From Branchiostoma floridae (taxonomy: Eukaryota; Chordata; Leptocardii; Amphioxiformes; Branchiostomatidae): DNA of 64,000 bases. A program made the translations under genes and the position numbers. Of the stretch, positions 9,783 to 29,200 are shown one piece after another. Position 1 is the stretch's first letter. Each line of letters begins with the position of its first letter. The DNA is taken from assembly GCF_000003815.2 (NCBI RefSeq), contig NC_049984.1, forward strand, positions 23,406,581 to 23,470,580, given 5' to 3'. The notes beneath the pieces were generated by a model. That model had not been told where the DNA came from, did no database searches, and saw only the letters and a program-made list of their open reading frames with translations.

Positions 9783-9905
9783 TTAATGTGTACTTCTGTC
9801 CCTCCTGAGTTGCAACAACATGTCCTCCCTTTCCTTCAGTTGTCTTCTCAGTTCCGCCATTTCCCTGGACTGCTTGTCAACCATGGCTTTCAAATTGGCG
9901 ATAAC
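9783..9905 (-). CDS. EIF2AK1: HRI last coding exon: C-terminal coiled coil
   Basis: The exon encodes 40 residues and a TAA stop at 9785-9783: [20 protein letters not shown] and then a Glu/Arg/Leu-rich heptad stretch ending RRDRSTH. HRI kinases end in a short coiled coil with a similar E-I/M-AEL-K/R-KQL pattern. The acceptor is CCTTTTTCAG. No obvious AATAAA was found on the minus strand in the next 600 bases. Confidence 0.88.
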   Translation of the reverse strand, partial: VIANLKAMVDKQSREMAELRRQLKEREDMLLQLRRDRSTH

Positions 9906-12900
9906 CTGAAAAAGGTAGAATGTCATTGGTTATTGGTTGGGCCGACTTCTCTCTCTTTGCAGCCAGGGGCTGAATACGGGGCTAAATCGCAAGGGCCTGT
10001 ATATACAGTGCCCAGTGACCTCAATATGACTGTCATTGCCCCACTCACACCACGAAGGACCCCTACTCTTTTCGATAAGTGTGTGGGGTTCTTTAACCGA
10101 GGGATGGCCTTAACAGAAAATTTGTACTCATTTTCACCTGAGTGAAGTGCAAGATCGGTGACACAACAACGGACTTGAACCCAAAATCTCTGGGTTATGA
10201 ATCAACCGTCCTACTGATTGCACCACACGACCATTTTGTTATACATTTTGATAATGCTCATTGTTTTGGAAAAAACATATTAAACATATTAAATCCTATT
10301 TCATAATGTAAATGAGTTGAACAAGGATCTTTTGACTGGTGCCACCATTTTGCTATTAGGACGTCTTGCAGTTACCATCTTGTTTTTAACCTGTAGGCCA
10401 ATTGACAGGTCCGATGCTGCAGTACTGTCATGGATTACTAGATGGCTCTTCAGTACTGCCAAGTAGCTAAATACTAGAGGCAAAATATTTCAATTCTGGT
10501 AGCCAGTGTGACAACTTAATTTCAACACCAATACTGTATAATTATACATAACGATAAATAACTAAAAAAACAAAATCTTATATTAGAGTTATCATGCACA
10601 TAAAATGAGATTGAAGTAAAAATGTTGAGAGTTTCTGCAGGAAAGCTGACCTTATCCTTGTCGTGGAAAAGATCACTCTTGAGGATATCTTTGGCACTTG
10701 GTCTGTACTTGGGCTCATCACTGGTCAGTAGCTGCATAAAGTCACACTGGGGACAAAATCAGATGGTTCACTAAGAACATCATAGTACATATTGATAATC
10801 TTAATTCTTGGTTCTTTAAAAAAAAATATAATTCTTATTACTTTTCAAAGAAAAGGAACAAGGAACATACTATTACAAACACATGCATGGCACAAAAATC
10901 AAAAGACACATGTGAGAAACTACAGAACTGATAAGTAAAACAAAGTTACCCTAATGACAAAAGAATTTCTATTTCTTGGTTTTTGCATAGATTAACTTCC
11001 TTTATTTTGATATTGAAACAATCACATGGCGCACAACTGAATCAAACTGGTGAGGTTGAAATTGAAAGTTTAGATTTTCCAGAAAACGCAACATTCAAGC
11101 AAAATATCACTCTTAAGTGTCTTAGTGGTTATACATCTTATGCCCCTGTCAAATATAGCTGGCCATGGCCTCCGACTTTCTCCAGACCATGGTTTAGGAC
11201 TGTCAGTAATGTCTTGTCAAGAAGAGCTTAGGATCCAGACAATTTTCCTTCTACAATGAACCTTCAAATGCTGTACAATCATATGGTCTGTGTTCTTTGT
11301 CATGAGTAATGAAAGAGAATAGCTCTTCAGTGAGCTAAACTGTGATTTTACCTGTCTCGGCCATCTTTCCACAAGGACTTGTGGTAGAACCCTGCCTTCT
11401 CGGAAGTCCTGGATAGACTTGGCACGTTCCATCTCAGTCCCGAAGGGGTGGAACAGCTCAAACAAGATGACTCCCATGCTGTACATGTCAGACTGGAAAG
11501 AAAAAAAAAAGAGATTTATTGTGCGACAATTGTATCAGTGACAATCAGTGAAATCTACGGTAGGTAAAAAGGAGATGGACATCCTTTCATGTTCTCAACC
11601 TCTGCAGAGCGGCGTTTCTCAAGTGGGCATGATACGCAGATAGAATATTTTTGTTTTTGAATATTTTGTAGGTAGCACCCTAAACTCAAACATATTCGTT
11701 TCTAGTATTCCTCTAGTGCGCCCTACTATGATTTTGCTGAGTCACCCCTGCGGTTTGAATGGTCTTACCTTACTGTTATACGTGGTTCCCTTGAGTTGTT
11801 CTGGTGATGCGTATGTACACGTGCCCACCCCCGATGTGTGCGTGGTCTCTCCCGCCATGACGTCGGGCATCTCCAGGGGTGTGAGGGGGGGACTGGACCC
11901 GTGGGTGTCCCGCAGGTCTTCCCTGGCCAGCCCAAAGTCACCGATGCACACATGTTCATCCTCACCCATCAGGAAAATGTTGGGAGGCTAGCGACAGGAT
12001 GTGAAAACGATTCAATATTTTGCACAACCATTGCTTTATTCTCACCAACTTTTCAGTGATCGTCTCTCAGTCTCACCTTCTTCAGGGCAATTCTGACAGG
12101 TTCACATTGTACTGCAGGACAGCTGTTGCTACTCATAGTTCAGATGTGGTCACAAAATGTAAAGTATTTACATATGTACTGACAGATTTATGAAAAATAT
12201 TTCAATGACCGCATCTGAACTGAGAGTAGTGACACTGTCCACACGGTGTAAAATCATAGTTAGGATTACATAAACCTGCAACAAAATCTCTTTAGTGTCA
12301 CTTTAGTGACGAAAGGTTGTGGATTCTACCTGAAACGTCTGACCATTTCCAAAATCATATCCTGTTGCTTGAGTCATTGCTATTTGGTGTATCTTATTAC
12401 CTGGATGTCTAATCTTCATTGATGTACATTTGTATAACAATTACCTTGAGGTCCCGGTGCATGAGTCCCTGTGAGTGGATGTAGTTCACTCCCTGTAGAA
12501 TCTGCTGGAATAGTCTCATGTTGTCATCCTCAGAGACACCACCAAAGGGGTCTGGGAAGGGTTTAGGAATAAACAAAAAAAATACTTCAGGTAAGGCATT
12601 CTTGCAATTGTTACATAATTATCATAAATGAGAACTACGGTCTTTATTGATTATAAGCCAATTTGGTATGACAACTGCATGTAGAAGAAAATACTTAATA
12701 GGTAGTTTACATTGGGGCCCATCAACCCTCTTTTGAATTGAACCATGACTATGGTAGATTCCGTTGCCACCTTTGATTCACTCTTGATGTCATCCCTGAA
12801 TGAAAATGTTATGAAGGTTGGAAAGATTTCGAAAATTCATTGTGTTTCCTTTGATGTTGGTACAAAGCTTAAATGTCTCTGTTGCATTCTACCTAACACA

Positions 12901-15900
12901 GATGAGCATTCATTCAAAACCTACAGTGTGTAAACTATGTTTTAGAACACTACTTTAGTCCATATGGAAGCTGATCATTATTTACTCAAAATAAACTTCT
13001 GAATATTTTTTCCATGTCCATTCAAGACAAAAACTATGTTAAAGAATGATTAACTCGACATACCATGTAATAAGGCAGCCTGCGCATTCCTACTGACCAG
13101 CCAATCCCGGAGTGACCTTTGACACAACTGCATCTGGATATATAGCACCACACCGCTTGTCTGAAAACAAAACACAACATTTTTCAAGTTTGGAAAGTAA
13201 TGACTGTTACCAGCTTCTGTGGGTGGAGCAATTGGTCATGGATATTAGCTATGTTTTCCATTGGGTTTCACATGTGTGTCCTTCAGTCATACATTGGAAT
13301 CACAATAGAAAAGTGTGCCAGTATGTGTCTACTGTATGACTTGGTTTCACATGTGTATCCTTCAGTCATACATTGGAATCACAATAGAAAAGTGTGCCAG
13401 TATGTGTCTACTGTATGACTTGGTTTCACATGTGTATCCTTCAGTCATACATTGGAATCACAATAGAAAAGTGTGCCAGTATGTGTCTACTGTATGACTT
13501 GGTTTCACATGTGTATCCTTCAGTCATACATTGGAATCACAATAGAAAAGTGTGCCAGTATGTGTCTACTGTATGACTTGGTTTCACATGTGTATCCTTC
13601 AGTCATACATTGGAATCACAATAGAAAAGTGTGCCAGTATGTGTCTACTGTATGACTTGGTTTCACATGTGTATCCTTCAGTCATACATTGGAATCACAA
13701 TAGAAAAGTGTGCCAGTATGTGTCTACTGTATGACTGAGCTTTTTGAGAGTTATTTACAGACTGAACATTTTCCAAATTGCAGTTGGGATGTAAGACAGC
13801 CATTATACCTTGAGTACGTTAAAGGTATAATGGGAATTATCGAAAAGAGTAGACATCCAATCCGGTGTTAGTGGATCATACCTCACAATCCGGTAATTAT
13901 GCAGCTTTTACTTTCTTTATAACACTGCAGGCGTATTACGCCTAATGGCAGTTTATCGGTAATACAAATCAAACAAACAAACAAGCAAATACTCACTTCA
14001 GCAACGAGCTCACAGTCAGCCAGCCCCTTCAGTCGTAGCTTACACCTGTCACCGCAGACGTGAGTCTCCGTGTGGCCGTTCCTGGCTCCCTGGTTCCAGC
14101 TGTGTTGTCTCTTTAAACTGCTCAACGGTGTAAAACCACCCCTTACATGTACATCTACAGAATCTTTAGGTGTACTGGTAAACGGAACAACTGCCCCTGG
14201 TAGGCTGTGGCCTAGCCTCACACTACTACTACTAGAGAAATTGGCTGACTCGAAATGTATCTCCTGCTCAAATCCTGTACCTACCCTCACACTGCTCTCA
14301 CTGTAACAAGCTGCCAATTGAAAGTCTCTCCTTGTCACTGGTTGTTCGCAATCTGTCTGAGATTTGCTGGAAGCTTCTAATTCTACAGGTGGTACAACAT
14401 AAGAACGTTGCTCGCCTTCTTTCATCGCACTTTGTGCTGCTCTTCCATTTTTTTCCAATTCAACAGCGTTGAAAGGTTCTGAGCTTTTTTCTTTGTTGTC
14501 GACAAGCTCTCTTTCTGATGCACAGGATTTCTGTTTTACACTCCCCACAAGTTCCAACGTTTGGTCAATCTTTTCTGATTCTTCTTTGCCTCTTTCGGGA
14601 GTCTCCCACTGTATTGTGTCCTCTAGTAGGAAAACTTCCTCAAAGTCATTGTTAGATCCTTTGTTTCTAGATGTCTCCCAAGGTATGGTGTCCTGAAGTT
14701 CTGTTGCTCTTTCACTCAGTCTGTTTTCCTTGGTTCCTTCCTTTCTATCAGATTCCCATGGTATGGTGTCCAGACGTTTGCTGGTTTTCTGACTGTCGTT
14801 CTCTTTCCTAGTTGTTTCCCATGGAATGGTGTCCAAAAGTGTTGAAGCTTTCTCACTGTTGTTGTCATCATCAGTTTCGTCTTTTCTATGAGTTTCCCAT
14901 GGTATGGTGTCTTGAAGTCTGGATGTTTTCTGACTGCTTTTCTTGTCTTCTTTCCTAGACGACTCCCAAGGAATGGTGTCCAAAAGCGTGGAATCTTTCT
15001 CACTCTTGTTGTCAGCTCTTTCTTTGCCAGCAGTATCCCATGGTATGGTGTCTAGCAGTTCAGAGGTTTTCTCACTTCTTTTGTCAGATTCCCTTTCTAC
15101 AGTGTCAACTGGACTTTCTTTGTTTCTCTTGTTGTACAACTGTTGTAAGTCTTCACCATGCCTGTTTATCTCTCCACCAGTAGCCCTGTTTTCTGTATCC
15201 ACAAGACAGGGTACATTGTCTTTCTCTGAGTGAACGCTGCTCAGTCCTGTAAAGCTACCCCTTACACGTACATCTACTGAGTCTTTAGGTGTACTGGTAA
15301 ACGGAACAACTGCCCTTGGTAGGTTGTGGCCAAGCCTCACACTACTACTACTAGAGAAACTGGCCGACTCGAAATGCACCTCCTGCTCAAATCCTGTACC
15401 TAACCTCACACTGTTCTCGCGGTAACAAGCTGCCGTTTGGAAGTCCCTCTTTCTTACTGGTTGATCAAAATCTGGCTGAGATTTACCAGAAGCTCCTCCT
15501 TCTGAAGTTGGCACAACATCAGAATGTTGCATGCTTTCTTTAACTGCGTTTTGTGCTTCTTTTTCAAGAGGGTTTAAGTTCCATTCACCGGGGTTAAAAG
15601 GTTCTGAGCATTTTTCGTTGTTGTTAACATGCTCTTTTTCTGATACATGCCTGACAATATCTTCAGTAGGAGTCTTGCCTTCTGTATCTACAAGACATGG
15701 CTCATCCTCCTTTTCTTTGACCCCAGGTAGACTTTCATCCGAATCTGAAGAACCAAGCTGCCATTTTCCCTTGTCTTGTAAGTAGGACTCCACACTGATG
15801 TCATAGCTACTGCTCTCTTTCGAGAGTGACCGTCTCTTTAGGACGGTGGCTTCAGTGTCACTCGCTGCCGACTCTTGGAATACAATACTGTTGCTGTCTG

Positions 15901-18900
15901 CATACATGTAAGGGGACCTATGTGTGCACATACATGGGAAAGATACGAAAAATATTTAAAGGAGTCCTAAACTATAAAGGGCAATGTTATTTTCCAATGG
16001 ATAACATATCAATGAATACGTCGATGTAGGTTAGACATCCAGGTAAGAAGATATGCCAAAAAGTAGTTACTCAAGCAACTGGATGTGGTTTGGGAAACTT
16101 GGGTAAAGAAAGCAACTGGATATGATTTTGGAAACCGTTTCAAGAACCATATCCAGTTGCTTGAGTAATTACTTTTTGGCGTGTATCAATGAATACAAAG
16201 TCAGCCGATTTTTTGCAAAATTCCACTTTTGGTGAATTACAGGACGTGTGTTTTGTAAAACAATATGATACTGAATACTGTAAATGCATTTAAGTTTGCG
16301 GGGATTTAATTTCGCGGTAGCGGCAGAAAGCACTTTTCGCAGTGGCTTTAAGTTTGCGGTATCACCATAAACTGCAATCTAATACTATAGTAGGAAAATG
16401 TTCGCAGTGGTTTTAAATTCGCGGTGAAGTGGTCACCGCAAAAACCGCGAACATTAATCCACCGCAAACATTTCTGCATTTAACCCCTCGCAGACCCTAC
16501 CCTTGTGTTACTATCTCCGCCACAAATCCTCCTTACCTTAGGTTCTGGATATCTTGAAGATAAGACGTCTCCAGCACAGGTAAGCTGGTACTGGAAGAAC
16601 GGTTACCTGTGCAAGGAAGTACATGTGTCATCAATTGATATGCATGTGCAGGGCTCGAAATACTTTTATATGCATACCTGCACTGGTGCAGGTAATGTTG
16701 AAAATTACCTGCACCAGACAAATTTTCCTCGCACCACTCTTAAGTTTAGGAAGTATGGATCATACTAAAATTGTTGAGGAACCATTCCTATTTTTTCTTT
16801 TATACTTAATAGGTGGTAAGAGTCAATGCAGCTAATAACAATCCACATACACCTACATCATAGGATATTCATGTCTAAAAGCCAGTACATGAACCAGTGC
16901 AGGTTAGGTGCAGGTAGACACCAGCAGAAATACCTGCACAGCTCCAATTTTACCTGCACTACCCTGCATATTCAGGTGGTATTTCGAGCCCTGATGTGAC
17001 AGAGAGATGTTACGAAATGGGAAAAGTAGCAGAATTTTACAGTAATGCTACAAATGTACTTTGCCTTTACCAGTGGGGTAACTTGTATCTGTATGGTATT
17101 TTGCAATATCAATTCGACCCCTGTTTGTTTCAATCTGCAATATTTTCATACATTATATATATTTCGAAAATACTAAAAACAACGGATAAAGTTTACCCCG
17201 CAGATAAAGGTGAACTAACTATTTTGTAGACGTAAGTACAGGTATAAAATAGGTTTGAGTTCTCACTTGTCATGGCTGGATTGCTGTACTCCATCCACGC
17301 TGTGTGGTACCTCACCACGTTGGCATGCTGTAGGCTGGCTAACAGTTTCACTTCACGCACAATCTAGGAAACAGATAATATGCACAGAAGGAAATAAAGA
17401 CAGACTGTCTTAGATGAAACATGAAACAATGACACTGAAGACAATACTTTTATTCTTGTGAAAGGACAGGTATTGAAGAAACAAAAATATGAGAATAATG
17501 ATTGAAGTTACATTTGTTTATGTTATAACGAATAGATTACGTTTAGGGTATTGGGAAGATAACAAAATTACAGTATCTTGAGTTTGACATCAAAACAAGG
17601 TCACTAAGTGTGAATGTGAGTTGAGCACCAGGGACAGGACCAGTGTGAAGTCAGTAGGAGGATAATCAGTGTGAATGTGAGTTCAGCACCAGGGACAGGA
17701 CCAGTGTGAAGTCAGTAGGAGGATAATCAGTGTGAATGTGAGTTCAGCACCAGGGACAGGACCAGTGTGAAGTCAGTAGGAGGATAATCAGTGTGAATGT
17801 GAGTTCAGCACCAGGGACAGGACCAATGTGAAGTCAGTAGGAGGATAATCAGTGTGAATGTGAGTTCAGCACCAGGGACAGGACCAGTGTGATGTCAGTA
17901 GGAGGATAATCAGTGTGAATGTGAGTTCAGCACCAGGGACAGGACCAGTGTGGAGTCAGTAGGAGGATAATCAGTGTGAATGTGAGTTCAGCACCAGGGA
18001 CAGGACCAGTGTGGAGTCAGTAGGAGAATAATCAGTGTGAATGTGAGTTCAGCACCAGGGACAGGACCAGTGTAAAGTCTGTAGGAGGATAATCAGTGTG
18101 AATGTGAGTTCAGCACCAGGGACAGGACCAGTGTGAAGTCAGTAGGAGGATAATCAGTGTGAATGTGAGTTCAGCACCAGGGAGAGGACCAGAGGTAAGT
18201 CAGTAGGAGGATAATCAGTGTGAATGTGAGTTGAGCACCAGGGACAGGACCAGTGTGGAGTCAGTAGGAGGATAATCAGTGTGAATGTGAGTTCAGCACC
18301 AGGGACAGGACCAGTGTGGAGTCAGTAGGAGGATAATCAGTGTGAATGTGAGTTCAGCACCAGGGGCAGGACCAGTGTGAAGTCAGTAGGAGGATAATCA
18401 GTGTGAATGTGAGTTCAGCACCAGGGACAGGACCAGTGTGAAGTCAGTAGGAGGATAATCAGTGTGAATGTGAGTTCAGCACCAGGGACAGGACCAGTGT
18501 GAAGTCAGTAGGAGGATAATCAGTGTGAATGTGAGTCAGNNNNNNNNNNNNNNNNNNNNNNNNNNNNNNNNNNNNNNNNNNNNNNNNNNNNNNNNNNNNN
18601 NNNNNNNNNNNNNNNNNNNNNNNNNNNNNNNNNNNNNNNNNNNNNNNNNNNNNNNNNNNNNNNNNNNNNNNNNNNNNNNNNNNNNNNNNNNNNNNNNNNN
18701 NNNNNNNNNNNNNNNNNNNNNNNNNNNNNNNNNNNNNNNNNNNNNNNNNNNNNNNNNNNNNNNNNNNNNNNNNNNNNNNNNNNNNNNNNNNNNNNNNNNN
18801 NNNNNNNNNNNNNNNNNNNNNNNNNNNNNNNNNNNNNNNNNNNNNNNNNNNNNNNNNNNNNNNNNNNNNNNNNNNNNNNNNNNNNNNNNNNNNNNNNNNN

Positions 18901-21159
18901 NNNNNNNNNNNNNNNNNNNNNNNNNNNNNNNNNNNNNNNNNNNNNNNNNNNNNNNNNNNNNNNNNNNNNNNNNNNNNNNNNNNNNNNNNNNNNNNNNNNN
19001 NNNNNNNNNNNNNNNNNNNNNNNNNNNNNNNNNNNNNNNNNNNNNNNNNNNNNNNNNNNNNNNNNNNNNNNNNNNNNNNNNNNNNNNNNNNNNNNNNNNN
19101 NNNNNNNNNNNNNNNNNNNNNNNNNNNNNNNNNNNNNNNNNNNNNNNNNNNNNNNNNNNNNNNNNNNNNNNNNNNNNNNNNNNNNNNNNNNNNNNNNNNN
19201 NNNNNNNNNNNNNNNNNNNNNNNNNNNNNNNNNNNNNNNNNNNNNNNNNNNNNNNNNNNNNNNNNNNNNNNNNNNNNNNNNNNNNNNNNNNNNNNNNNNN
19301 NNNNNNNNNNNNNNNNNNNNNNNNNNNNNNNNNNNNNNNNNNNNNNNNNNNNNNNNNNNNNNNNNNNNNNNNNNNNNNNNNNNNNNNNNNNNNNNNNNNN
19401 NNNNNNNNNNNNNNNNNNNNNNNNNACGGATTAGCAAGCGAAAGTCGTGAGCCAGCGGTTCTACGGAGGATGATACTCAGGCTACTTTGATTGTACATTG
19501 GTTTTAGTATAGTGGCAAATACACTACCAGGTGATTGGAAATAACAATAGTTATCTTGTATGTTATAACTTATAAGTCTCTCTCACGAGATTACAAAAGC
19601 ATATAGCTGTCCAATAAAAGTCATTATTCTATGACATTGTCTGTCAAATCTGTAAGTTAATTAACTAAAATGTAAACTTAATCAAAGTATTGAACTTTCC
19701 AACTACTGGTAATATCATGTACATATATGGAAAGCAAATACCATTATATGATAATGCCTTATTCCAACTTACCTTCATTTTAGTCAAGTGCTCGCATATT
19801 ACTGTAAATATAATCAAAATCAATGTATCAGTTCACAGGAAATACAGCTCCACCAGAAAAAAAGAAATATGATTAATCTAACATAAACATTATGTAAAAA
19901 GTTCATGTTGATCAACTATGCCAATTCCTTTTTCATCATTTTTGGTTCACTTGTTTGGCAGTATGATTTTATGTTATCTACGTCAATCTGGTTTTGTACA
20001 ATTACTATGTTTATGTTACTTATTAAAGTTAATTTGGTTTTATATAACTTTATGTACATGTATGATTATGTTATTGAAGTTAATTTGGTTTCGTTGAACT
20101 TAATATATGACTTAAGTTCTGGGTTCTCCCCCCAGGGGGCTTTGAAAAATGCCGTCAGGCAATATGCTTTAACCTGGTTAAATAAAGAATAAACAAACAA
20201 ACAAACAACCTTTAAAGAGTTTGTTCCTCTTCTCCTGGTCGGTCTCGTACAGGGAGCAGAGATGCTCCAGCATGGACACCAGGAGCATGCTGGGAGCTGG
20301 GTTGGCGGCCTGTCGTCTCACCACGGCAAAGTTACTGGCACTGGTGTAACTACTGTCCTCCAGGTCTGACTCTGGGGGGTTCAGATCGAACAAACTGTCA
20401 AAACATACATTTACAAGTCCTGCTGCAGTACTGTAGGATTTGATAGGAGGCGCTGGTGCATGTAGCTGCTATCCTCCAGGTCTGGCTCTGTGGGGATCAG
20501 AAACAAACTGTCAAAACATGGATATTAAGTCCTGCTGCAGTACTGTAGGAAGCTGACTGGAGGCGCTGGTGTAACTACTGTCCTCCAGATCCAACTCTGG
20601 AGGGGATCAGAAACAAACTGTCAAAACATACATATACAAGTCCTGCTGCAGTACTGTAGGAAACTGATAGGAGGCGCTGGTGTAGCTGCTGTCCTCCAGG
20701 TCCGACTCTGGAGGGGTTCAGAAACAAACTGTCAAGACATACATATACCAGTCCTGCTGCAGTACTGTAGGAAGCTGACTGGAGGCGCTGGTGTAGCTGC
20801 TGTCCTCCAGGTCCGGCTCTGGAGGGGATCAGAAACAAACTGTCAAAACATACATATACAAGTCCTGCTGCAGTACTGTAGGAAACTGATAGGAGGCGCT
20901 GGTGTAGCTGCTGTCCTCCAGGTCCGACTCTGGGGGGTTCAGAAACAAACTGTCAAAATATAAATATTAAGTCCTGCTGCAGTACTGTAGGAAACTGATA
21001 GGTCCATTCTTAAACTTGACCTTCGTCTTACGGACACCTGCTGTACCCACCTACCAAATATCATGAGGATCCGTCAACAGCTTCTCGACTTATGGTGTTA
21101 ATATCAAACATACCAAGGAGGTTAAAGAAACCTCCTTGAACATACACATATGTCCTCAG

Positions 21160-21199
<40 letters not shown>

Positions 21200-21683
21200 A
21201 CACACACACACACACACACACAAATTATAGAAGTGACACAAACACAAAATGTACATATAACACACACACACACAAACCAATACCTCACTACCTTCAACAT
21301 TTTTTCAGGCGCCAATGGTAATTTTCCATTTATATCCGACGTCCGTCTATGCAGCTGTTTGCAGCTATCTCACTATATAACGTTATCATATCAGTTACAC
21401 AGCGCCCCTCCCCTTTTTTTAATTGATTGTTAACGGTCATCTTTTGTCAAGAAATACACAGAAAAACTACGTAAAACCAAACCATTTCTGTCTTACCGTC
21501 GAAGTCGGCCAGAGAGCGAGCCGAATCAGCATCAAAACTGAAGCCGCTGTGTGTGGAACGTTGCGAAAGTTCCTGAACAAGGTGGCCATGTTGGTCTTGA
21601 CTTTGCGGCGCCGATGTTCGATTCAGCGGCCCGTCAACGTTCTTCCCTCGGTCCCTGACAAACCCTGTGCCCGAGCCGAACAT
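9783..21683 (-). CDS. EIF2AK1: HRI, heme-regulated eIF2alpha kinase (gene span, 9 readable exons)
   Basis: HRI phosphorylates Ser51 of eIF2alpha in the cytosol and lowers translation initiation under heme deficiency or mitochondrial stress. Readable exons from 5' to 3' are 21683-21497 (tentative), 20394-20210, [gap], 17363-17267, 15897-13997, 13160-13064, 12551-12445, 11987-11769, 11492-11352, 10746-10651 and 9905-9783. From 17363 onward all splice phases agree. Visible hallmarks are the alphaC region [44 protein letters not shown], the activation loop [18 protein letters not shown] and [11 protein letters not shown], all close to vertebrate HRI (from family knowledge). The glycine loop and VAIK lysine are not seen and probably fall in 18540-19425. 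A ~630-residue kinase insert is far longer than the roughly 125 residues of mammalian HRI. Confidence 0.93.
9965..10240 (-). repeat. tRNA-derived SINE-like element, reverse orientation
   Basis: Read on the minus strand there is a tRNA-like head near 10236 with a B-box-like GGGTTCAAGTCCGTTG, then a body containing GGTTAAAGAACCCCACACAC. It lies in HRI sequence just upstream of the last exon. A fragment of the same family occurs at about 37455-37545. Confidence 0.55.
10651..11492 (-). CDS. EIF2AK1: HRI exons for kinase C-lobe helices F-I
   Basis: There are two exons. 11492-11352 (47 codons) encodes [20 protein letters not shown] followed by [17 protein letters not shown]; 10746-10651 (32 codons) encodes [20 protein letters not shown] and ILKSDLF. 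The invariant Asp of subdomain IX and the subdomain XI Arg (YRPSA) are present. Both junctions are phase 0, with donors GTAAAA and GTCAGC and acceptors ending CCAG. No extra exon is needed between them. Confidence 0.92.
11769..13160 (-). CDS. EIF2AK1: HRI exons for hinge, catalytic loop and activation loop
   Basis: There are three exons. 13160-13064 encodes [20 protein letters not shown]; 12551-12445 encodes [20 protein letters not shown] through HRDLK; 11987-11769 encodes [20 protein letters not shown] through [15 protein letters not shown]. Catalytic Asp of HRD, the following Lys, Asn, and DFG are intact. The activation loop keeps the Thr pair in [12 protein letters not shown] that is autophosphorylated in this family. 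Junction phases are 1, 0 and 0 and are mutually consistent. This part looks like an active kinase. Confidence 0.95.
13232..13737. repeat. Minisatellite, 79-bp unit, about 6 copies
   Basis: The unit, including TTTCACATGTGTATCCTTCA and ATGTGTCTACTGTATGACT, repeats with almost no divergence. The first copy (about 13264-13340) differs at a few bases. It lies in the HRI intron about 100 bp upstream of the 13160 acceptor. Short open frames across it are repeat artefacts. Confidence 0.95.
13997..15897 (-). CDS. EIF2AK1: HRI giant kinase-insert exon with DTIPWE repeats
   Basis: This single 1901-nt exon (2 nt + 633 codons) is open throughout and in phase with both neighbours when the acceptor GTATGCAG/ACAGC at 15897 is used; it ends LADCELVAE. 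It starts [11 protein letters not shown], similar to the SSSIIFAEP stretch at the start of the mammalian HRI insert. It then contains segment A (about 15619-15236), seven repeats with core L-x-D-T-I-P-W-(E/D)-(T/S) between 15052 and 14603, and segment B (about 14497-14117), a second copy of A. The sequence is Ser/Glu/Lys-rich and probably largely disordered. No known domain is recognised. The insert sits between the N-lobe strands and the hinge, as in other HRI/PERK kinases, but is about five times longer than in mammals. Confidence 0.9.
14603..15052 (-). repeat. Coding tandem repeat: seven DTIPWE motifs
   Basis: Motif cores lie at 15035-15052, 14963-14980, 14894-14911, 14816-14833, 14753-14770, 14675-14692 and 14603-14620, a period of about 60-80 nt (20-26 residues). 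The consensus is (S)EK-(A/T)S-xx-L-x-DTIPWE-(T/S)-xRK. The last copy reads DTIQWE. Linkers vary in length by whole codons, so the frame is kept. Confidence 0.95.
16276..16482. mobile_element. Palindromic MITE, TACTGTAAATGC/CGCGG family
   Basis: The left end is TACTGTAAATGCATTTAAGT with a TTCGCGGTAGCGG arm. The right end is the inverted arm ending AACATTTCTGCATTTA. Other copies are at 37551-37762, 51807-52021 and 62795-62988, with truncated or decayed copies at 48963-49065, 33632-33826 and 52846-53037. Confidence 0.8.
16649..16993. mobile_element. MITE with CAGGGCTCGAAATA inverted ends
   Basis: The termini CAGGGCTCGAAATAC and GGTATTTCGAGCCCTG are perfect inverted repeats. The pentamer ATGTG directly flanks both ends (16644-16648 and 16994-16998). 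The interior is rich in ACCTGCAC/GTGCAGGT motifs. A longer copy is at 45753-46200. The CAGGG end resembles hAT-type termini. Confidence 0.8.
17267..17363 (-). CDS. EIF2AK1: HRI exon for the alphaC helix and beta4/5
   Basis: This 97-nt exon encodes [20 protein letters not shown] and [12 protein letters not shown], then one base. The alphaC Glu (REVKLL) is present. The close match to vertebrate HRI ([21 protein letters not shown]) fixes the identity. The acceptor is TTTCCTAG and the donor GTGAGA. The next upstream exon (glycine loop, ATP lysine) is not in readable sequence. Confidence 0.93.
17600..18539. repeat. Minisatellite, 61-bp unit, about 15 copies, running into the gap
   Basis: The unit GATAATCAGTGTGAATGTGA plus GTTCAGCACCAGGGACAGGA plus ACCAGTGTGAAGTCAGTAGGAG repeats with scattered single-base changes. 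The array stops only because the N gap starts at 18540, so its true length is unknown. 61 is not a multiple of 3 and the array is intronic to HRI. Confidence 0.95.
18540..19425. other. Assembly gap (886 N)
   Basis: The gap lies between a minisatellite and unique sequence inside HRI. Readable flanks lack the HRI exons for the rest of the N-terminal helical domain and the kinase N-lobe, so the gap probably contains them. From 19426 to 20170 the sequence is AT-rich with no supported exon. Confidence 0.99.
20210..20394 (-). CDS. EIF2AK1: HRI N-terminal domain exon
   Basis: The exon encodes [20 protein letters not shown], then [20 protein letters not shown] and [21 protein letters not shown]. The LLVS-LEHL pattern matches the N-terminal heme/stress-sensing region of vertebrate HRI (LLLVSLLEHL). 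The acceptor is GTTTTGACAG at 20395 and the donor GTTGTTTG. It starts with one base completing a codon, so the preceding exon must end in phase 2. The candidate exon at 21497-21683 does not. Confidence 0.85.
20395..21010 (-). repeat. Tandem array of the HRI exon acceptor junction, ~111-bp unit
   Basis: Five extra copies of the intron end plus the first ~60 nt of the exon at 20394 lie upstream of it on the minus strand. Acceptor points (TTTTGACAG/TTTG) are at 20507, 20617, 20728, 20839 and 20949, spaced 110-113 bp. Each copy keeps the AG and the segment for [11 protein letters not shown]. The copy at 20949 also keeps the exon's reading frame; several others carry an extra base before the DLED segment. 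Confidence 0.9.
21168..21277. repeat. (CA)n microsatellite, interrupted
   Basis: CA tracts lie at about 21168-21222 and 21261-21276, within the first readable HRI intron. Confidence 0.95.
21497..21683 (-). CDS. EIF2AK1: Probable HRI first coding exon (tentative)
   Basis: An ATG at 21683 opens a frame [20 protein letters not shown] running to [18 protein letters not shown], ending at a strong donor (GACG/GTAAGA) at 21497. Position next to the shared promoter and sequence composition fit a first exon. The phase at its end (1) does not fit the next identified exon (needs 2), and the second ATG frame (21589, MATLFRNF) ends in phase 0 and also fails. An unrecognised small exon or an assembly indel is needed. 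Confidence 0.5.
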
Positions 21684-22089: not shown

Positions 22090-25000
22090 ATGGCGGCCAC
22101 CGGTGCAGGAAAAACCATGGACAAGGAAAAGAAATACGATCGTCAACTAAGGTGTGTATTTGAGGTCACTTTGGACTTTCTAGTGGTTAGGTATGTAACT
22201 ATTGTCTATAAAGAAAGAGGTGAAATGCCTTTGCGACCACACTACCCACTAGGTTATCTCTGACTGGTGCAAAACTCTAGGCTAGTCAGCAAGTTATTTT
22301 TCTGTGGCATATTATTAACTCTAAATATTTAGATAAATGAATCCCTTCTGTATGAATCTGAACATACTTGTGTCTGTACTTCTATGTATAAGAACTATTA
22401 TGAGCTTAATAACGCGTATATTGCGTTGTCTCGGCGTAAATTATGCTTAGGGTAAACATCTGACTGGCCCAGTATCCAGAGGTAATAGGTTAGAATCCCT
22501 TAGTAAGTTTACTTTAACCCTTAACCCTCTCAACACGTCATAATTTTTTTTCCTGTATACCATATACGACATATAATTTCAGTCTATACAGGTGTCAATT
22601 AGTACTTTTTGTGTATTATTATTACAGCTGTTATGTAAGGAGTAGACTAGGAAAACTATATATTGCTGGAAAGCTCACAGAATGGCCTTTCAAAAACAAG
22701 CAAAATAAATATCATACCATCTATCTGAGGACAGCAATCGTCATGGAAACCACTAAAAAACACATTTGCAACACTCCCAAAAGTTTCACAAAAGAAAACA
22801 TTTGCCTAGGGGCTGACTTTTTTGTGTCATTTATCATAAAACTATGTAGAAATACTCAAACATACATACACAATGCTGGTATGTTAGAATGACCAAAACT
22901 AAAAATCAAAGCATGATTTCAAATAAGTTCAGTGCTGATAAACAAATGTTCACCCCAATAAACAGTTGTGCCCCCCTCCCCACACCTGTAGTTGTACTAT
23001 TGAAAATAAATAAAAATGATGAATATGCCTTGTGCTAAATGGCAAATTATTTTTCTGGATGTTCTCCACATATCAGGGAGTCAAATAAATCCACTTACTA
23101 TGACTTGGGTAGAGAGACAGGTATCAGAGTATCTAAAATATCAATTGGGACCAGTGACCTATCTGACCTGACCTTGTCCACCTCATGCCCCAAGAAAAAC
23201 AACAAGGAAGCATGCATGTAGAGCTCATTAGACACAGGGATATCAGCTCATTTGATCTCAACAAAAACAGCTGGGTGTTTGCCTTGCTGTCCCTCAAGGA
23301 TTTCCCTGTCATCACTCCTGTAAGCCTCCAACAAAATTATCCACCAAACTGTCTCCATTTCTGCTAAATTTACTAAATAAACCTGTAGAAATCTGAAGCC
23401 AAAACACATGCTGGAGGCCTCAGAAACAGGGCTCAAATGCTACATCTCTTCTGGTTGGTCAAAGATACAAGCATCCTGATTGGCAGACTCTGCCAAATTT
23501 CCCATTTCACAGTAGTCAGTTTGAATTTCCTGCCGGAATCTCGCGTCCTATGGGAAAGCCATGATAGTGGCTTCTGGTGTTGAGAGGGTTAAATTGCCAG
23601 CCCTGTAAAATGCCATCAGTGCCAGGGTTGGCTGCTGACCTCAAAAAGAAACTACCGGACAAGGCCGAAGTCCCTACCAATTATATAATAAACAATAATT
23701 AGTAACATTCGGGGTTCGTGCGCAAAGCTGCTACTTCGGGGAATACGCTATCTCGGATATATCCAGGCACGGCACACAGGGCATGTATATGACCCGGATA
23801 TATATGGGCTTGGCACTTTAAAGTTTAACATATTTACGTCCAAATTGTACACATAGGCTGTGGGGAGACCATGGCCAGGCAGCACTTGAGGCATCCCGGG
23901 TGTGTCTGGTGAATGTAACAGCCACTGGCACGGAAACACTCAAGAACCTCATCTTACCAGGTAGGCAGCAATAATGTAACAATAATGTCAATCTTCCAAG
24001 TGTTTATTAAGATATATATCACAATACCTATTGTCCAGGGCAAGTGAAAGAGCTGATTGGGCAAGTGCATGACCTACCCCACTTGTCCGATCGTGCTAGT
24101 ATCACTTTTCCAATTTGAGTGAGATTTTGATATGCTTGTCCCTTTTTACAGTCATGACATCAAGCAATGGTCAACATAGAAAAATAGAGACAATGATAAG
24201 AATTCCATTGCTGGAAGTGAAATTAAATGTAGAAATCATTTTTTTCGTGTTTTTGTTTTTTGTTTTCTTTAATCATATCAAAGATATTTTGCTAATGCTA
24301 CTATAGAAAATTAATCCATGATTAATCATTCATTGTTGATTAATCAATAAACAATGCATAGCTAGAATAAGAGATGATTTTGAAAATTTGTTCATGTTGT
24401 TGTCTCTTGCAGGTATCGGCTGGTTTACCATCATTGATGGTGGTAAAGTGACCGGAGAGGATGTGGGCAACAAGTAGGTCATGTTATAGAAAGTCATATT
24501 AGTAATAAGTATGGATCCTTCCATCTTGGTAGTAGCCTGGGTACCATCCGGGTAGTAGTTCGCTCCTAGTCCTATGTTTGCTTCTGCTACCTGTCTGGTC
24601 TGGAGACCTGCACATTCTTTTGGTGGTGATGTCAATAAGAGAATTAAGGAATGGGTTCATAGAGCACCTGTTTGATGACGACAGGCCCTTTTGCAAACAG
24701 ATAGGGGACATTTTGGGTGTTGTTGGAGCGGGCACTTGAACCCATTCCTTAATTTGCTCATGACTTTTTTTTGTTTAGGGACCAATCAGTGCCCTTGTCC
24801 AGAAAAATTTGGATGATTCCAGACATTAGAGATGTCAAGGCTCTCAGACGGAATAGCAGAGAAGAGACTGTATAGTGTATGATAAAATACTGTACATGTA
24901 GTGTAACATAGTTGAACATGTACTTGTTACAAAGGTTTTGAAATGTAACAAACACCCACATGGTTACATTGAATTGACTCTAATGTATTGAATAATATGA

Positions 25001-26268
25001 CATTTTTAAATGTCTTTACGACTCGGTAAAGCTATTTGATCAGTTGTTATAAGTATGTAGTTGTATCACATTCGGTGATTCAAACAAAGCATTCTATATA
25101 GACCTGTCTAAATTGTTTTATTCTCTTTTCATCAATTTGTACAGCTTCTTCCTTGAGAGAGACAGCATTGGAAAGGTGAGAGGGGAACTATGACTACCTT
25201 TCTCTTAATAGCTATGGTTATACTGCAGTTTAGGGTTAACCTGCAAGATGGCATTGTTACTCAAAATTTTTAAAACTACAGCTTGCACACCTTACCAATT
25301 GCAAGTCGTAGTATGAAAATTCATCTCTGTTGATACATTTACAACATTATCAAAACAGTTAACTATTTTCCAGGCAAGTAAAAATGGACTCACCTACTAT
25401 TGTTTTGTCTTTTGGTCTTGTTCAGCTGATGCTATATTGTTTGTTACGTGTACCTCAAATTTACAATTTAAACATATTACGCATGGCTTGTATGATGACT
25501 ATACTACTAAAGCCTCCAACAAACGGAAAGTTGGAAGGCACATTACACTTTACTATCAAATGAATGTTCCTGCAAGCCTACAAATGAAATTGTTCTTTTC
25601 CAGTCTCGTGCAGAAGTGGCTACAGAGTGTTTGTTGGAGCTGAACTCAGATGTGCGTGGGGATTTCATTGATGAGGTAAGTGATCTCTAAAGGATCTTTG
25701 CTATGTTTTGCTATCTATAAAAGCAAAAGGTAGTCCACTCTTAACTTGAAAGTTCATCTGTGTTGGTAAAAAATTGTTCTGGATCAATATTAAACTTCTA
25801 ACACAAAAGATTTTGACTGAACAGCACCAGTCTTTGTTAAGGAATGAGCAATCCACTGCTTCTGTGACATCACGTTATGCAGATAAAACATGTGACTCGG
25901 TGAGCAGTGGATCATAGGTTGCAGAAAGCCTATGGGGCCCCCCGTCTCTTTTTAGGGATGATCCACTGCTGACTGAGTCACTTGTTTTCTTCTGCATAAT
26001 CTAACAACCATGAATTGGTGGATTGCTCATTGTTTGACAAAGACTAGAGTTGGTCAGTTTAAAATTTGGGTAAGTCCAATTTTTGTGTTAAAAGTTGAAG
26101 TTCAACTGTGATCCAGTAGTCTACTCTAATGATGAAGTTGTGTAAATTTGTTCCTCACACATTTACCCCACTTGTTGTTGTACCCAAGAACCCAGAGCAC
26201 CTGTTGGAAGCCAACCCGGAGTTCTTCCGTTCCTTCAGTTGTGTGATTGCGGCACAGATGCCTGAGAG
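22090..26268 (+). CDS. NAE1: NAE1 exons 1-6 (ThiF/E1 half-domain start)
   Basis: The start is ATG 22090 ([21 protein letters not shown]), with a second ATG ten codons on that could also serve. Exons 2-6 cover the E1-type Rossmann region: [62 protein letters not shown] and [27 protein letters not shown]. All donors are GT. The 31-nt exon at 25145-25175 is unusually small but conserved in sequence ([11 protein letters not shown]). Confidence 0.96.
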
Positions 26269-29200
26269 GTGGGTAACATAATGCTTTATTTCAGAGTTTT
26301 CTCCATGAAATATTTAGACTTATAATTATGTGGGGAGGGGGATGTAGTGAAATATACTGTATTTGCTCATAAGCAAATATCAGCCTTTCTAGTTAGTTAA
26401 TTAGACTTATGTATNNNNNNNNNNNNNNNNNNNNNNNNNNNNNNNNNNNNNNNNNNNNNNNNNNNNNNNNNNNNNNNNNNNNNNNNNNNNNNNNNNNNNN
26501 NNNNNNNNNNNNNNNNNNNNNNNNNNNNNNNNNNNNNNNNNNNNNNNNNNNNNNNNNNNNNNNNNNNNNNNNNNNNNNNNNNNNNNNNNNNNNNNNNNNN
26601 NNNNNNNNNNNNNNNNNNNNNNNNNNNNNNNNNNNNNNNNNNNNNNNNNNNNNNNNNNNNNNNNNNNNNNNNNNNNNNNNNNNNNNNNNNNNNNNNNNNN
26701 NNNNNNNNNNNNNNNNNNNNNNNNNNNNNNNNNNNNNNNNNNNNNNNNNNNNNNNNNNNNNNNNNNNNNNNNNNNNNNNNNNNNNNNNNNNNNNNNNNNN
26801 NNNNNNNNNNNNNNNNNNNNNNNNNNNNNNNNNNNNNNNNNNNNNNNNNNNNNNNNNNNNNNNNNNNNNNNNNNNNNNNNNNNNNNNNNNNNNNNNNNNN
26901 NNNNNNNNNNNNNNNNNNNNNNNNNNNNNNNNNNNNNNNNNNNNNNNNNNNNNNNNNNNNNNNNNNNNNNNNNNNNNNNNNNNNNNNNNNNNNNNNNNNN
27001 NNNNNNNNNNNNNNNNNNNNNNNNNNNNNNNNNNNNNNNNNNNNNNNNNNNNNNNNNNNNNNNNNNNNNNNNNNNNNNNNNNNNNNNNNNNNNNNNNNNN
27101 NNNNNNNNNNNNNNNNNNNNNNNNNNNNNNNNNNNNNNNNNNNNNNNNNNNNNNNNNNNNNNNNNNNNNNNNNNNNNNNNNNNNNNNNNNNNNNNNNNNN
27201 NNNNNNNNNNNNNNNNNNNNNNNNNNNNNNNNNNNNNNNNNNNNNNNNNNNNNNNNNNNNNNNNNNNNNNNNNNNNNNNNNNNNNNNNNNNNNNNNNNNN
27301 NNNNNNNNNNNNNNNNNNNNNNNNNNNNNNNNNNNNNNNNNNNNNNNNNNNNNNNNCGGACCTGCGACTCCAGTATATGGGACAAATCCCTGCCCATAAC
27401 GGCCGCGTCATTTTTAAATCTTGAGGCGCCATCGATTTTCAATTACTAGCACGATTTTGTGCTGAATTCGGCCAGTTTGCATCGGATTTTGACTACCATG
27501 TTTGACTTTACGATGTTATGTTCAAAATAAAGATGGCGGCGGATGCACGTGCTTGTGTTTGCTATTTTCCATTTTAAACACAATGGAAACTATTTATAGT
27601 CTGCATCGGGCATGTTGTGAGTTGATACTCTTCTAACGGACCACCTGACCAAATCAACTGATTTTGCCCGGGTAGTCGTCTTGAGCAGGTTTGACTGTAT
27701 ACGTTCAACATAGCTTTGAAATAGTTACTGCTCAGGTTGTGTGTTACATAGGCATTACTGTTGTTTCAATAGTTCACTCATCCAAGTAATACTATGAGGC
27801 TTTGTCTACTAGTACTCACTGTGACCATCCAGCATGTACGATGTAGTAGCGATAAAAAAACAACATCGTCAGCAAAGCTGGACAAATATAATGACATGTT
27901 AGCCCGATGTAGTTACGTCAGTGTAGTCTGGGTACCATAGGATCTACTACTGGGGTAGTGCAGTTACCATCCTCTGTGGTAAAAAAAATTAATTTTGGTT
28001 GCCATGGCCACACCAATGGTTTGATGCTTCTTGGCTTTGCATGTCCATTTTTTTGTAATTTTCAAAAAAAAAGTCCAGAGAAAAAATAAAACAGGTTTTG
28101 CTATTAGAAACCTTTAAATATTGCCATTCACAGCCACATACACATAAAATGCCTTTTATTCATAATATTAGTAACAAATCAAAGGAAGGAATTCATCGCA
28201 TATATTGTGCCACTTAACTCCTCAAGCTGCTTTTTTTTTATAAGCACAGACTTTTTGATTTTATTTCTACCTGTCGGCCCAATTTTTTTCTGAAAAAAAA
28301 TGGGAAGCAACAAATAAATTTGGTGTGGCCTAACCACAGATTGATCCAGCGGTGTGTATGGAGGATACCGGCTCTGCCAAAAATGTCAAGGCAGTCTTAT
28401 ACTGTAATTATAGCCTTTTTGAAGCCCCAAGGGCAGTGAGTTGTTGTCCACGGCGTCTCTAGGGCCCGCCCCGGCATTGGAAGGCATAACCCATCCCTCT
28501 CTTTCCACTGCTCCCATCTGAAGTCAGTAACCATTTGAGTGGAGTCAGGAAACTCGTGTTATATAGTGCCTTTCCCAAAGAGAGCATGTCAGCTGATTCA
28601 AACTCTAGGTTCTGGACCAAACACCCTAACCATTACACCAACACATCTTGTATAATCTTCATATCCATTTAATTGTATTATGATTTGTAAATTTTGACAG
28701 GGGAAAGGTTTTATAAGCCACACGGCTTTTTCTCCCCCCCCACCTTGCACGTTCTGTTTGTTTTCTTTAATTTGCTGTACGTTATTCATTTTTTAAAGTG
28801 CAAAATAAAATCAATCAATCAACACAATACCACCAGCGAGTCTACCACTTGGTCTCCTATACTAACTTTTTTAGTATTGGAGCCCTGATATGTAGTAAAT
28901 TGGATGGTACCCAGGCTAACATCAGTGAGAGTCGTCATTGTTAAAGATGAGGTGATCTCACTGCATGAAAACTCAAATTTCCGGGAATTTCTGGGCTCTG
29001 ACAAACACGTGAAACTCGACATATCCTGGTCGTGTATCCATCCAGTGTGTCCCATCATTGAAATTCCCATATATTCCTGGACATGACCTGGACACGTCAA
29101 GTTTCACGGGTGTTCCAGGTCCCAGAAATTCCCGGAAATTTGAGTTTTTGTGCAGTGTGTTGTGTGAGTGAAGCTGGGATGGTTCCTTGCCTGCCGTACT

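Follow-up and report, generated by a model that had tools for sequence, protein, structure and literature searches.

A tandem array of seven DTIPWE units in the kinase insert of an amphioxus HRI gene

Described HRI inserts and short motif arrays

The closest described counterpart of the gene analyzed here is human HRI (EIF2AK1). Its kinase insert spans residues 241-370, about 130 residues, and deletion of this insert, which is needed for efficiency, slows autophosphorylation, as stated in the available part of PMC9520036. Exchange measurements find the human insert disordered, and 41 autophosphorylation sites are counted in the protein, with a dense patch at insert residues 275-309 (PMC12235045, in excerpt). 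Two Cys-Pro pairs, C411-P412 and C553-P554, have been linked to haem in human HRI in the accessible portion of PMC13181343.

The array described below can also be compared with short motifs in other proteins. MELT units, as found in KNL1/Spc105, turn over by duplication. The likeness lies in the presence of several short-motif copies on one protein, whose number is described in the part of PMC7292645 at hand as balancing signal strength; the motif and the protein are themselves unrelated to the HRI array. The W-acidic peptides of kinesin light chain ligands (SKIP, calsyntenin-1) share with our array a disordered peptide context, a hydrophobic residue at -2, a tryptophan and an acid at +1, going by an excerpt of PMC6214655.

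In the open-licence literature, we found no paper joining HRI and EIF2AK1 with amphioxus, or EIF2AK1 with Branchiostoma; among papers on amphioxus, eIF2alpha and the integrated stress response, none concerns amphioxus HRI as far as titles and the beginnings of abstracts tell. The main text of a paper on eIF2alpha kinase evolution (PMC5851622) names neither Branchiostoma, amphioxus nor cephalochordates.

The amphioxus gene and its insert exon

The window, a stretch of 64,000 nucleotides from Branchiostoma floridae, carries an HRI gene on its minus strand, whose exons were set by hand from GT/AG borders and reading frame (Table 1). Eight exons, from 17267-17363 to 9783-9905, give 926 residues with no stop, and three N-terminal exons give 126 residues. 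Between these two pieces lies an assembly gap (18540-19425), 2.6 kb upstream of the insert exon, which probably holds the missing exons: the first part of the N-lobe and those matching the region of the haem-binding His pair. The N-terminal piece matches the Pfam family PF22949 (HRI2_3H) at 57.6 bits (cut-off 27) over profile positions 3-41 of 80, stopping at position 41 because the modelled sequence goes no further. Pfam identifies the C-terminal piece as a protein kinase, and among the best 60 of 2550 solved-structure scores, EIF2AK1 comes first with 187.2 bits, followed by PERK (139.4), GCN2 (117.8) and PKR (92.8). By sequence comparison, the gene is HRI/EIF2AK1: the identity proposed by the sequence-only reading is upheld by both the HRI2_3H match and the best structure match.

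Table 1. Features of the HRI gene in the window
Feature	Position	Strand	Basis and remarks
N-terminal HRI exons 21497-21683, 20210-20371, 19773-19801	19773-21683	minus	helical domain match
HRI intron 1 minisatellite	20337-21002		111 bp x 6
HRI intron minisatellite	17607-18536		61 bp x 15, up to assembly gap
HRI exon before insert exon	17267-17363	minus	GT/AG and frame
HRI insert exon, 2 nt + 633 codons (1901 nt)	13997-15897	minus	phase 1 in, phase 0 out; GT/AG borders
Flanking block, first copy, 135 codons	15233-15643	minus	upstream of array; protein self-alignment score 443
Tandem array, seven units of 19-residue consensus	14567-15076	minus	core alignment, spacing
Flanking block, second copy, 135 codons	14114-14518	minus	downstream of array; protein self-alignment
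HRI intron minisatellite	13264-13736		79 bp x 6, 99% match
HRI exon after insert exon	13064-13160	minus	frame and structure match
HRI exon with HRDLK	12445-12551	minus	frame and structure match
HRI exon with PPNIFL...DFGLA...ASPEQL	11769-11987	minus	frame and structure match
HRI C-lobe exon	11352-11492	minus	frame and structure match
HRI exon, C-lobe end	10651-10746	minus	GT/AG and frame
HRI last exon, C-terminal tail	9783-9905	minus	GT/AG and frame; heptad-like, coiled coil by eye only

The human protein (PDB 9rhh) and the amphioxus protein have in common the helical domain, a C-lobe closest to EIF2AK1 and a disordered insert (in amphioxus, predicted for the array part) ahead of the IQMQLC strand; the amphioxus protein differs by the length of its insert, its repeat array and a block duplication. 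The human protein has Cys-Pro haem motifs, whereas no Cys-Pro dipeptide occurs in either the 926-residue or the 126-residue modelled part of the amphioxus protein, a point that the sequence-only reading had missed. Aligned with 9rhh, the amphioxus sequence has a gap opposite the CP of DESACPYVM and W-P opposite that of KRCPVQ; these two human CPs were taken as C411-P412 and C553-P554, following the numbering in the excerpted PMC13181343. Such motifs concern haem regulation and not the kinase family: the assignment to HRI was made by sequence, and we make no claim on haem control.

In the 513-Mb B. floridae genome (431 contigs), the C-lobe exon has one match besides itself, of 46% identity over 37 residues and with one TGA, so that no close second HRI is seen in the genome. 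This weak match, on contig C377 (4904-5008), is perhaps another eIF2alpha kinase exon or fragment. Within intron 1, the 111-bp array repeats the acceptor together with the start of exon 2. With up to 8 substitutions allowed, acceptor-like places were located at 20929, 20818, 20707, 20596 and 20371. Our model uses 20371, and the others may be decoy acceptors. The head-to-head neighbor of the gene, on the plus strand at about 22090-26270 (extent by eye), is NAE1/APP-BP1, the NEDD8-activating enzyme E1 regulatory subunit (34-residue match, E 1.1e-12).

In the protein, the insert exon is flanked by YHTAWMEY and LYIQMQLC. It belongs to a minus-strand frame that is open for 690 codons (13886-15955), whereas in 60 composition-matched first-order Markov windows no open stretch exceeded 215 codons. 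Its borders are an acatgtatgcag acceptor and a GAA/gtgagtat donor, and the frame runs on into both neighbor exons: the exon before it ends in phase 1, the insert exon takes 2 nt and ends in phase 0, and the exon after it starts in phase 0. By eye, the pyrimidine tract of the acceptor at 15897 is weak. We take it to be a genuine coding exon of the HRI gene. An open exon in phase with HRI exons on either side had been claimed from the sequence alone, as had an insert some five times the vertebrate length, and both claims hold: the 633 codons compare with the human residues 241-370 given in the available part of PMC9520036.

In a structure prediction, the array part of the insert has a mean pLDDT of 53 and no helix within the array; the model was made from a single sequence, and such models are often poor whether or not a region folds. 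The array region is thus predicted to be disordered. The start of the insert (15848-15897, minus strand) resembles a serine-rich segment known from the inserts of vertebrate HRI, and the human insert comes after the corresponding AWIE stretch. A short ancestral insert may have expanded into the amphioxus one.

A feature absent from the sequence-only reading is that a 135-codon block flanks the array on both sides, in two diverged copies. Compared copy against copy, the blocks have dS 0.335, dN 0.174 and omega 0.52 (Fisher p 0.025), and their differences are spread nearly equally over the three codon positions (23, 23 and 27). Taken alone, the block copies are a weak coding signal, because of this near-even distribution and of the omega value. 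Copies of HFESA are present in each block. A stretch around PCLVDTE is likewise shared, occurring upstream of the first block and again upstream of the array (0 of 1000 shuffles as good). From this we infer that the blocks and the PCLVDTE stretch belong to a single longer segment that was duplicated, with the array interrupting its second copy. Among array units, synonymous distances range from 0.36 to saturation, compared with the 0.335 of the blocks, which hints, on small counts, that the array is the older of the two.

Composition and constraint of the array

The seven cores start, on the minus strand, at 15052, 14980, 14911, 14833, 14770, 14692 and 14620, with core-to-core spacings of 24, 23, 26, 21, 26 and 24 codons (range 21-26). 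This is the coding strand of the array: the plus-strand translation of 14603-15052 is interrupted by stops. Six cores read DTIPW followed by E or D, and one reads DTIQWE; D, T, I and W are identical in all seven units, P is found in six (Q in the last unit) and E in six (D in the first). The residue after the core acid is always T or S, and L occupies position -2 of the core in every unit except unit 5, which has R. Within the insert exon, DTI[P/Q]W is confined to the array. These counts per column bear out the near-invariant L-x-D-T-I-P-W-(E/D)-(T/S) core that had been read in seven tandem units; the linkers, as was also claimed, change by whole codons, all seven units being in frame. As to the extent of the conserved unit, the core stood, and the unit proved wider than had been stated, with a 19-residue consensus. 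The array also has an internal two-unit period of 147 bp, and units 2-3 differ from units 4-5 by a dS of 0.52, the pattern expected after a pair duplication.

Selection was measured between units of this one gene, over all 21 unit pairs, with the six core codons compared to twelve flanking codons. The DTIPWE codons have pS 0.559, pN 0.042 and omega 0.042, versus pS 0.613, pN 0.349 and omega 0.369 in the flanks; without unit 7, the most diverged, omega is 0.035 in the core and 0.258 in the flanks. Among six-codon windows (n = 13), the core is the minimum, with 13 non-synonymous differences against a mean of 65. This minimum was reached in 0 of 400 simulations in each of six settings (omega 0.25, 0.4 and 1.0, each with two tree shapes), and 264 of 100,000 column shuffles were as low as the core. 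Changes from the consensus codon number 9 synonymous and 2 non-synonymous in the core, compared with 25.5 and 44.5 in the flanks (Fisher p 0.008); without unit 7, they number 6 and 1, compared with 22.5 and 30.5 (p 0.045). Counts are small, the seven units are few and their pairs non-independent, and the direction agrees in every form of the test.

Judged by this comparison between units, the core is constrained as protein and is not merely young, in agreement with the earlier claim of a selected core set against variable linkers. Recent duplication or gene conversion was ruled out as the source of the fixed core, because synonymous divergence is alike in core and flanks. A DNA-level element is unlikely, since the core codons differ among units. 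Constraint extends to the codons next to the core (omega between 0.26 and 0.37), which may mean that the motif reaches beyond the core or that something else maintains the repeat. With flank values below 1, the whole unit is under some constraint.

Genome-wide, the insert exon has one match in the assembly. No second gene with the same array was found by protein search, which returned, among the best candidates scored, the query and three matches with E values of 3.4-4.8. A 17-base degenerate pattern for the core has 10 matches in the genome, 6 in the array and 4 elsewhere. The latter show one motif apiece, within open stretches of 59, 32, 169 and 51 codons, and look like chance matches, of which about 6 are expected by our own arithmetic at even base composition; the backward control gave 1. 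Six stretches of viral contigs matched a pattern, and none was confirmed as a viral relative. No Pfam family and no solved chain matched the array. Among known short motifs, PP2A-B56 LxxIxE, TRAF6, calcineurin LxVP, LC8, LIR and clathrin-box appear to differ from the core in spacing. The open-licence literature yielded no paper that brings together tandem repeats, a short linear motif and a kinase insert, and among the matches listed for the letters DTIPW, TIPWE, IPWET and IPWES, none concerns the motif by its title.

Candidate roles of the array

An invariant D-T-I-x-W on charge-rich linkers looks like a repeated docking peptide, and we rate at about even the prospect that the selected array is a multivalent docking array for a putative partner, which is our leading explanation. 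The adaptor or sensor role put forward in the sequence-only reading is likewise a candidate. Several other explanations must be weighed. That the exon is unused or results from an assembly error seems very unlikely: the nearby gap and the weak acceptor would speak for it, but the long open frame, the GT/AG borders with compatible phases, the constraint at the amino-acid level and the single match of the exon in the assembly all argue against it. Neutral expansion deserves more attention. A length-tolerant loop in a slippage-prone gene may have produced an exonic minisatellite devoid of motif function; the minisatellites present in three introns of the gene, the repeated copying seen in the two-unit period and the surrounding duplicated block, and the only mild constraint on the blocks are all consistent with such a history. 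However, the core lacks non-synonymous changes at a normal level of synonymous divergence, and all seven units stay in frame with whole-codon lengths. We therefore regard purely neutral expansion as unlikely: a gene prone to local tandem copying could account for the number of units, though not for their fixed core.

The two remaining alternatives assign a function to the core. The units may bind the kinase itself (its own lobe, the dimer partner or the N-terminal domain), the T/S residues by the tryptophan being autophosphorylated to form a multi-step fuse. The many autophosphorylation sites of human HRI and their dense insert patch (PMC12235045, in part), the slower autophosphorylation after deletion of the human insert (PMC9520036, in part), the invariant core T and the T or S that always follows the acid agree with this possibility; yet W and I are as invariant as T and are required by no phosphoacceptor role, which leaves it doubtful. 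Alternatively, the units may be W-acidic-like peptides for the TPR groove of kinesin light chain, linking HRI to kinesin-1 transport. All seven indeed present a hydrophobic-x-W-acid succession, and five of the seven fit what we take to be the kinesin light chain pattern, [LMTAFSIV][^KRG]W[DE].{3,5}[DE]. The excerpt of PMC6214655 describes W-acidic motifs as short, disordered adaptor peptides, with leucine at -2 in SKIP; the array has isoleucine there. None of the units, however, has an acid on both sides of W as in the EWD example of the same source: position -1 is proline in six units and glutamine in one, and the motif comes in seven copies. The match carries little weight because the pattern is loose and a single founding unit could have yielded all seven matches. 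The W-acidic peptide is thus the nearest known motif, with an incomplete fit, and a role in kinesin binding appears improbable.

Under the docking-array explanation, a unit of 21-26 residues with a tryptophan-centered core would have been multiplied to seven by tandem duplication, after which purifying selection would have held the core while linkers drifted, a pattern seen here between units only. Each core would act as a docking peptide, inserting I-P-W in a groove of a putative partner protein. Seven copies on flexible linkers (fourteen per dimer, if the protein dimerizes like human HRI) would provide avidity, through which a scaffold or regulator may recruit or retain HRI. Copy number would tune binding strength, by analogy only with the KNL1/Spc105 MELT array. 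A partner on the insert could change kinase activity as well as place, because the human insert is needed for efficient autophosphorylation according to the available part of PMC9520036. A bolder proposal is that cephalochordate HRI traded a haem-type input, given the lack of Cys-Pro, for a heptavalent tryptophan docking array made of an undescribed DTIPWE motif with a putative receptor; we consider this rather doubtful.

The reception of non-haem signals by HRI is unsettled, and little is understood of its insert. A naturally occurring HRI insert with a fixed-core repeat represents a ready bait: a synthetic peptide could catch a partner that binds the insert, and could show whether the insert is a general input module.
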